A stretch of 64,000 bases of DNA, from NCBI RefSeq assembly GCF_008831285.2, contig NC_045140.1, forward strand, positions 22,958,131-23,022,130. The letters run 5' to 3'. Below, in pieces: positions 54,345 through 56,060 of this stretch (the stretch's first letter is position 1; every line of letters begins with the position of its first letter). Source of the stretch: Nymphaea colorata. Taxonomy: Eukaryota > Streptophyta > Magnoliopsida > Nymphaeales > Nymphaeaceae. Made by a program: the position numbers and the translations under genes. Under the pieces are notes generated by a model, which was not told the origin of the DNA, did no database searches, and worked only from the letters and a program-made list of their open reading frames with translations.

Positions 54345-54835
54345 GTCTTCCGTGACTTACTTATGCACCAGAATGGACAAGAACATCGAGCCAACGCCTT
54401 CACCAAGCCGACGCTACGAAGTACAAAAGGGAGAACGGCTTCCCAGCTGGATAGACTAGAGGGCCCTCGATGCATTTGTGCTAATAAAGGACCAAAGGCA
54501 ATGTGGTAAATCTCTCTCTTTTCCTTTATTCTTGTTCTTTCATATTTTGTGATGAACGAGCTATAATAATGGATGGTACAATGGTTGAAATAGAATTTGA
54601 AGTTCTTTGCTCTTGGTGTTTAGCACTTTTAGGGCATTCTCAGCAATTGCAGCAGTCGAAAGCATAAACAAGATCGTGACAATTAAACTTATCTCATTTT
54701 AAGAGCAAGAACAGGTAGATTGCAATACCACCTACAACCAGAACTGTAATGGCGGCTGCAAGGATTATGCCCTCCCATTCATTATCGACAATGGAGGTAT
54801 AAACACTGAACAAGATTACCCCTACACGGCTGTTC
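54345..54835 (+). pseudogene. Protease pseudogene, exon 1 end to exon 2 (left arm of inverted repeat)
   Basis: It encodes the end of exon 1 (TYLCTRMDKN to YEVQKGERLPSWID, then a stop), retains KDQRQCG at the intron 1 junction (GGTAAAT here, a GT donor), and continues into exon 2 ([15 protein letters not shown], then a stop) down to [13 protein letters not shown]. It ends at 54835, exactly where an oppositely oriented copy begins. Multiple stops make it non-functional. Confidence 0.85.
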
Positions 54836-55663
54836 ATTCAGAAATTTTTACATTTGTAATGTTACAGACGTCATCAATAGTCGTGTAACGGTAATTTTGT
54901 TCAGTGTCTATACCTCCATTATCAATAATGAATTGGAATGCATAATCCTTGTAACCACCATTGCAGCCCTGGATGTAGGTGGTGTCATGATCTACCAATT
55001 TTTGCTCCAACAACGAGATAAGTTCACCAGTTACGATCTTGTTTATGCTTTCAACTGTGCAAGTGCTTTTCTTAAAAGTGCCAAACACCAATAGCAATGA
55101 AGATCCAATTCTATTTCAACCATTGTACCAAACATTATTGCAGCTCGTTCATCAGAAAGTACGAAAAAATAAGAATGAAGGAAGAAGCAGAGATTTATCA
55201 CATTGCCTTTGGTCCTTCACTGGCGCAACTGCACCGAGAGCTCTCCAATCTATCTAGCTAGGAAGTTGTTCTCCCTCCTGAACTTCGTAGCGTCAACTTG
55301 GTGAGGCACCAGCTCTCTGTTCTCGTCCATTCTAGTGTGTGCGTAAGTCGAGCGATACTCTTCGTTAGTGAGATCAGAGAACTGGTTGAGCCCCAACTTG
55401 TAGGAGTGGCTTCCAGCATTATGCTGGTCGATGTAGAGCAGGTTGTCTTTGAATATTCCAAATTTCTTCTCCCTCTCCCTCAAACCATTGTAAGATTTGT
55501 TGTGCGCTACTATCCACTTCTTGAATAACTTTTGCACCTCTTGGTCACTTCGACCACCGAAGTTCTACTCGTCGTGACTATTTATTGGCACGTCTAGAGC
55601 AGCGATGCCTACCACAACAAAAAGCAATCCTACCAGCAGCAGAGCCATTGCACTAGACGCCAT
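54836..55663 (-). pseudogene. Protease pseudogene, exons 1-2 (right arm of inverted repeat)
   Basis: Reading leftward from the ATG at 55663: a full signal peptide (MASSAMALLLVGLLFVVVG), NSHDE, then a TAG stop where the sister copy at 50734 has a Gln codon. The prodomain is intact in frame ([21 protein letters not shown]), then frameshifted after NRELVP. The intron 1 donor region reads KDQRQCD, losing the active-site Gly. Exon 2 (about 55090-54845) lacks CWAFS but keeps [20 protein letters not shown] and [26 protein letters not shown]. It abuts the plus-strand copy at 54835. Confidence 0.85.
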
Positions 55664-56060
55664 GGCTAAAATGATCTCAACACCCTACAAGGAAAATCCA
55701 AAAAAATATCTGGGAACATATAAGATCATAAAATAAAATATAGCCCTACAAAAAGAAGAAGAACTACTATAGGATATAAGCTCTGACTGCAATTAGGAGA
55801 CAATATATGTGGATGTGATAGAGATTCAGATTTAATCAAGTCCTATTGTAAATAGATCCAAATTTGAACTTGTATTCAGACTTTTGTTACAAAACTAAAG
55901 TTGGATCTTAATTGATCTAACTAGTGCAAAGTCTTACATTTATATGCAATGTTTGGTGAGAAGTAAAAGTATTTCATCTTACTAGCCATCTTACTACCCA
56001 ACATGAGAGTTGATGCCCCACCCTTCCTCTATTTGTTGGGGTGTCAGATCTGCATTCGGT
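55664..56060 (-). promoter_or_regulatory. Preserved protease upstream module
   Basis: Closely matches 29-430 upstream of the edge gene. If active, it would transcribe leftward through both arms of the inverted repeat. No individual promoter element is claimed. Confidence 0.5.

Follow-up and report, generated by a model that had tools for sequence, protein, structure and literature searches.

Two dead RD21-type protease copies of Nymphaea colorata meet tail to tail: a long potential hairpin, a lost core promoter and a probable relic of rearrangement

Do two protease pseudogenes that lie tail to tail in a water-lily genome form a hairpin that yields small RNAs, or are they debris of a decaying gene array? 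The question is raised by a 64,000-nucleotide stretch of Nymphaea colorata DNA (the window, G000:C3:22958131-23022130, in a genome of 407.8 Mb), in which two fragments of the same protease region face opposite ways with almost no spacer. We find that the pair is probably what a rearrangement left behind in an array of RD21-type proteases that is decaying, and we infer that the locus is mostly neutral.

Alignment of the left arm (54354-54837, plus strand) with the right arm (55349-54873, minus strand) showed that 388 of 474 aligned letters were identical (81.9%), with seven gaps of 1-5 letters; an ungapped comparison recovered the arms as three pieces. A preliminary description of this DNA had put the arms at about 490 bp and, by eye, at roughly 80-85% alike, which alignment bore out at a length of about 480 bp. 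It had also let the fragments meet at 54835/54836. Their opposite, tail-to-tail orientation held, and comparison with other copies moved the junction to 54837/54839, with one unassigned letter in between, because the left arm breaks off within exon 2, and the right copy reaches intron 2 and covers 13 nt of it. In gene coordinates the right copy runs 34 nt further than the left arm (21 nt in exon 2 plus 13 nt in intron 2), so the loop of a hairpin would be about 35 nt long (54838-54872). Both arms match exons 1-2 of the intact protease gene at 38.2-40.0 kb and align with the same exon 1, intron 1 and exon 2 stretch of six other copies. The presence of intron 1 in both arms ruled out an origin as retrocopies.

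The 996 nt from 54354 to 55349 folded into a single long hairpin on either strand. The leftward fold reached -621.9 kcal/mol against a shuffle mean of -259.3, and the rightward fold -592.5 against -238.7, a z of about -41 on either strand (20 dinucleotide shuffles per strand). This z, together with the alignment of both arms to the same stretch of six other copies, excludes a chance repeat. The earlier suggestion that a leftward transcript could form a long hairpin thus stands as a statement of capacity, in that the minus strand would fold into a hairpin of about 480 bp.

Table 1. Coordinates of the features discussed, numbered from the first letter of the window.
Feature	Position	Strand	Description
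Intact RD21-type gene	38171..39974	-	Gene model with 5 exons, 452 aa; I29 propeptide, C1 peptidase, granulin
GC-rich leader-like stretch	54207..54345	-	Splice-donor-like GT at 54206-54205
Left arm	54354..54837	+	Interior piece of an RD21-type protease copy, from late exon 1 through intron 1 to cover most of exon 2
Predicted hairpin loop	54838..54872	.	A single unassigned letter; the remaining 34 nt belong to the right copy (13 nt intron 2, 21 nt exon 2)
Right arm	54873..55349	-	Section of the right copy able to pair with the left arm
Whole right copy	54839..55663	-	ATG at 55663; exon 1 to start of intron 2; cut at the junction
Deletion scar	55759..55770	-	Core promoter and leader removed; also in the left-edge copy
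Distal upstream DNA (the 'module' of the preliminary description)	55771..56051	-	Lies beyond about -560 to -590 in c3306, c23068 and c21844
Cryptic TATA candidate	55939..55944	-	At -281; no other TATAAA in the 1000 nt before the right copy; distinct from the CTATAAAG box of the family

The surroundings of the pair are an array of related genes. The product of the intact gene contains an I29 propeptide, a C1 peptidase domain and a C-terminal granulin domain, which place it among the RD21-type proteases, and triticain alpha is its top match among solved structures. By our grouping of matches, about 12 separate protease stretches lie on both strands within 119 kb (22952500-23072000, less 499 letters); the genome matches listed numbered at least 13 and at least 17. 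Modelled intron 1 of the intact gene begins with GC (39508-39507) rather than GT, and five of the seven other aligned copies have GT at this site, the exceptions being the right copy and c22402. The region around the arms is a mosaic of inverted duplications: two inverted segment pairs, 44534-45150 with 59716-59089 and 50229-50462 with 56531-56299, have 93% identity, which is above that of the arms. The upstream module and the first approximately 30 nt of exon 1 of a further plus-strand protease copy lie at 46531-46764 and 45143-45962; no gene body was found behind this module.

Both members of the pair have dead coding frames. The left arm contains stops in exon 1 (54457-54459) and exon 2 (54700-54702), retains the intron-1 donor GT (54506-54507) and, in an eight-copy alignment, has a 10-nt deletion near the start of exon 2. 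In the right arm the intron-1 donor has changed from GT to AT (55198-55197), and the same alignment shows a 15-nt deletion near the start of exon 2. The right copy also has an in-frame TAG at codon 33 (55567-55565). The same TAG is found in the left-edge copy, c22402, c23068 and C7:16695, making five copies on contigs C3 and C7, and the site is a sense codon in c3306, c21844, W51 and the intact gene. A common TAG means either that a protease pseudogene was copied after its death or that the change recurred. Stops, frameshifts or deletions were found in each of the five longer aligned copies of the clade (c22402, c3306, c23064, c23068 and c21844). What had been described as a protease gene cut by the left edge of the window proved to be a truncated pseudogene, which shares the TAG of the right copy and in which approximately 300 bp of exon 1 adjoin pieces from the 3' part of the gene, with the bulk of the gene body missing.

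This left-edge copy matters for the question of a promoter, as it was the reference by which the right arm had been said to keep its own. The likeness between the two upstream regions is real (86% identity between 55636-56051 and 1-419), but the right copy and its reference alike have lost the promoter core. Among eight copies compared, five (the intact gene, c22402, c3306, c23068 and c21844) carry CTATAAAG between -225 and -266 and, after it, a leader that can be aligned, and CTATAAAG is absent upstream of the right copy, the left-edge copy and W51. In the right and left-edge copies, sequence found near -580 in c3306 follows directly at about -107, and by eye the breakpoints of the two copies match. 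Their common deletion, of 410-485 bp depending on the copy compared, removes the CTATAAAG TATA box and the leader. An insertion in the full copies was ruled out as the explanation because the TATA box and leader also occur in the intact gene, taken as outgroup, where they lie about as far from the ATG. Since the core promoter is deleted in both copies, the upstream module is not a preserved promoter. A hairpin siRNA locus driven by the promoter of its parent would have the family core promoter upstream of the right copy, where we found none, and the locus is presumably not transcribed from a protease promoter of its own.

In structure, the pair resembles a class described in rice, in which adjacent inverted pseudogenes give rise to siRNAs (Guo et al. 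2009, PMC2708354). As set out there, the class comprises paralogous pseudogenes on opposite strands and less than 2 kb apart, with a stem of more than 100 bp, a loop of less than 2 kb and one-strand small RNAs on the stem above a density cut-off (PMC2708354). Here, two paralogous pseudogenes, both with stops or frameshifts, abut on opposite strands at 54837/54839, and the stem of about 480 bp and loop of about 35 nt lie within the same bounds; going by its letters, the locus fits the structural part of this definition. One rice pair reported in that study has 83% identity, a 185-nt stem, a 1,283-nt loop and mapped small RNAs (PMC2708354). The present stem is longer and its loop far shorter.

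We propose that the array, whose papain-like, granulin-bearing RD21-type genes occur on both strands, has been decaying, and that a DNA rearrangement would have joined two dead members tail to tail: an internal fragment of 484 bp and a 5' copy lacking the core promoter. Any RNA that crossed the locus, through read-through or from the cryptic TATA at 55944-55939, would form an imperfect hairpin of about 480 bp. Dicer-like enzymes could cut such a hairpin, chiefly into local heterochromatic siRNAs. Production of hairpin siRNAs by either route is possible.

A more active role would be that of a live hairpin siRNA locus, in which a leftward transcript from the cryptic TATA or from read-through yields 21- and 22-nt products of the left arm that silence RD21-type mRNAs, above all that of the gene at 38.2-40.0 kb. 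We consider this unlikely. The fold and the rice precedent at 83% identity (PMC2708354) are in its favour, and the leftward strand pairs better than the rightward one (421 against 408 of 489 alignment columns, in line with the lower energy of its fold). A TATAAAT also lies at similar distances in the right copy (-281) and the left-edge copy (-284), but the core promoter itself is deleted. Predicted target sites in protease genes, which the preliminary description had proposed to look for, exist in principle in the intact paralog. We scored the 464 antisense 21-mers of the left arm against eight sequences using our own script, written after common plant rules. Against the intact coding sequence, 66 of the 464 scored 4 or less and 12 scored 2.5 or less, and three shuffles of the left arm gave no 21-mer at 5 or less against the same sequence. 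The intact gene is the nearest candidate for an siRNA target. These scores follow from homology, however, and would be relevant only if small RNAs exist: six dead copies had 30 to 130 of the 464 at 2.5 or less, each above the intact gene, and C9:16525, a second intact-looking gene that was scored as genomic DNA, had 8 at 4 or less and none at 2.5 or less.

A live locus might also be expected to preserve its pairing, and there is a slight bias of this kind. With transitions polarised against the other copies at 75% agreement, 33 kept and 20 broke the pairing that a leftward transcript would form (p 0.049 in a one-sided binomial test, 0.044 in Fisher's test). Across 10 settings, the binomial p ranged from 0.036 to 0.148. 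The excess is confined to the left arm (18:6; right arm 15:14), which shows the same tendency whichever of the seven other aligned copies it is set against. Because p hovers around 0.05 and the left arm leans alike against all seven copies, we do not rely on this bias; it is a weak hint, and not evidence of function or transcription. The longest paired run, of 37, was reached in 980 of 5,000 column shuffles and is not unusual. Neither this ordinary run, the one feature tested for a miRNA-like segment (about 21 nt, more conserved than the rest of the arms), nor a search of the window, in which no Rfam family reached its gathering score, pointed to such a segment. The fullest form of the idea is that two different dead paralogs became an siRNA locus, that the deletion moved a substitute TATA (55944-55939) to about the distance of the lost box, that selection kept the left-arm pairing and that the products restrain the intact protease gene. 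We hold this to be very improbable.

The direction of substitutions was also tallied by strand. On the sense strand, the left arm (54354-54837) has 13 G>A and 3 C>T changes, and the C>T:G>A counts of the seven other copies lie between 12:6 (W39) and 6:10 (c23064). The left-arm excess of G>A may reflect leftward transcription, methylation or chance. In exon 1 of the right copy outside the arm there were six C>T and four G>A changes, a difference that is uninformative on transcription.

Alternatively, the arms may act in cis, with the hairpin or Pol IV transcripts as a source of 24-nt siRNAs that direct methylation of the arms and of the beginning of an adjoining leftward unit. The left arm stops about 10 bp from the leader-like stretch at 54207-54345, with its donor-like site, and this stretch may form the 5' end of a unit transcribed leftward from the edge of the arm. 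A GA/CT microsatellite of 21 units (54160-54201) lies just behind it. Among 32 bins, AT skew is largest at 52-54 kb (+0.218), which fits the T-rich introns of a minus-strand unit, and 53.4% of antisense pseudogene siRNAs in rice were 24 nt long (PMC2708354). Against this, none of 11 peptides from the leftward unit (51.8-54.35 kb) had a match near a cut-off in two Pfam scans, and the unit may be no gene. An effect of the arms on it in cis is possible; as an account of the locus, methylation in cis strikes us as similarly unlikely.

The arms could also stem from a single inverted (fold-back) duplication of one copy, having diverged since. On the coordinates of the gene their ends are no more than 34 nt apart, as a short-loop fold-back would give. 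We aligned the arm region in eight copies (the left and right arms, c22402, c3306, c23064, c23068, c21844 and W39). The K2P distance between the two arms (0.227) is greater than that of either arm to c22402, c3306, c23064 and c23068 (0.187-0.207) and about equal to their distances to c21844 (0.225 and 0.231). No two-state column of this alignment unites the two arms alone; three join the right arm with c23064, two join the left arm with c23064 and three join all of them, so these three may form a clade. The arms also differ in their deletions. In exon 1, the right copy most resembles the left-edge copy (88.8% over 295 columns) and the C7 copy (88.8% over 285), with W51 at 88.6%. The trees were near star-shaped. 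A clade of the two arms cost 0.61 log units and was not rejected with eight copies (p-AU 0.31), and it cost 5.82 log units and was weakly rejected with 13 (p-AU 0.037). In the 13-copy set, a sister relationship of the right and left-edge copies also had a p-AU of 0.034, with a log-likelihood just 0.97 lower. AU values near 0.03 are untrustworthy here, because they disfavour this relationship despite the common deletion breakpoints. An origin by one inverted duplication is therefore weakened, and we regard it as improbable. By their sequences, the arms are likely, if not settled, to be two separate family members that met rather than one copy folded back. An assembly artefact at the junction can be dismissed as extremely unlikely: a fold-back artefact would be expected to have near-identical arms, and these arms differ at 18% of sites and in their indels.

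As a probable relic formed from two dead paralogs, the locus can be set beside plant inverted repeats with established products. Its arms are longer than MIRNA foldbacks. MIR163, MIR161, MIR824 and MIR846 are described as MIRNA loci born from gene sequences, with an origin of MIR163 said to have involved the promoter of its gene of origin and with the two arms of Arabidopsis MIR824 and of MIR846 traced to different duplicated regions (Fahlgren et al. 2007, PMC1790633). As in those loci, the present foldback arms resemble a gene family, and MIR824 and MIR846 share the two-source arms that seem likely here; going by these two cases, arms from a single copy are not strictly required for the birth of a MIRNA. 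Those loci are expressed as discrete small RNAs, whereas here the core promoter has been lost. Lgc1 (rice glutelin), GmIRCHS (soybean) and PAI (Arabidopsis) are silencing inverted repeats of endogenous genes (cited via PMC3608071). Like the present pair, they consist of rearranged copies of endogenous genes, which in their case are read through into double-stranded RNA. The arms of Lgc1, GmIRCHS and PAI are nearly identical. Their silencing has been shown. The present arms have 82% identity.

If the locus is transcribed, it would be a traceable case in which juxtaposed dead paralogs, rather than one inverted duplication, became a source of small RNAs against a protease family. Such a case would sit in a plant group with public small-RNA data, of which the water-lily sets CRA019696 and CRA019738 are named in PMC12038890. 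If it is not transcribed, the lesson would be that likeness between the upstream regions of two copies does not amount to a preserved promoter, as both may share one loss.
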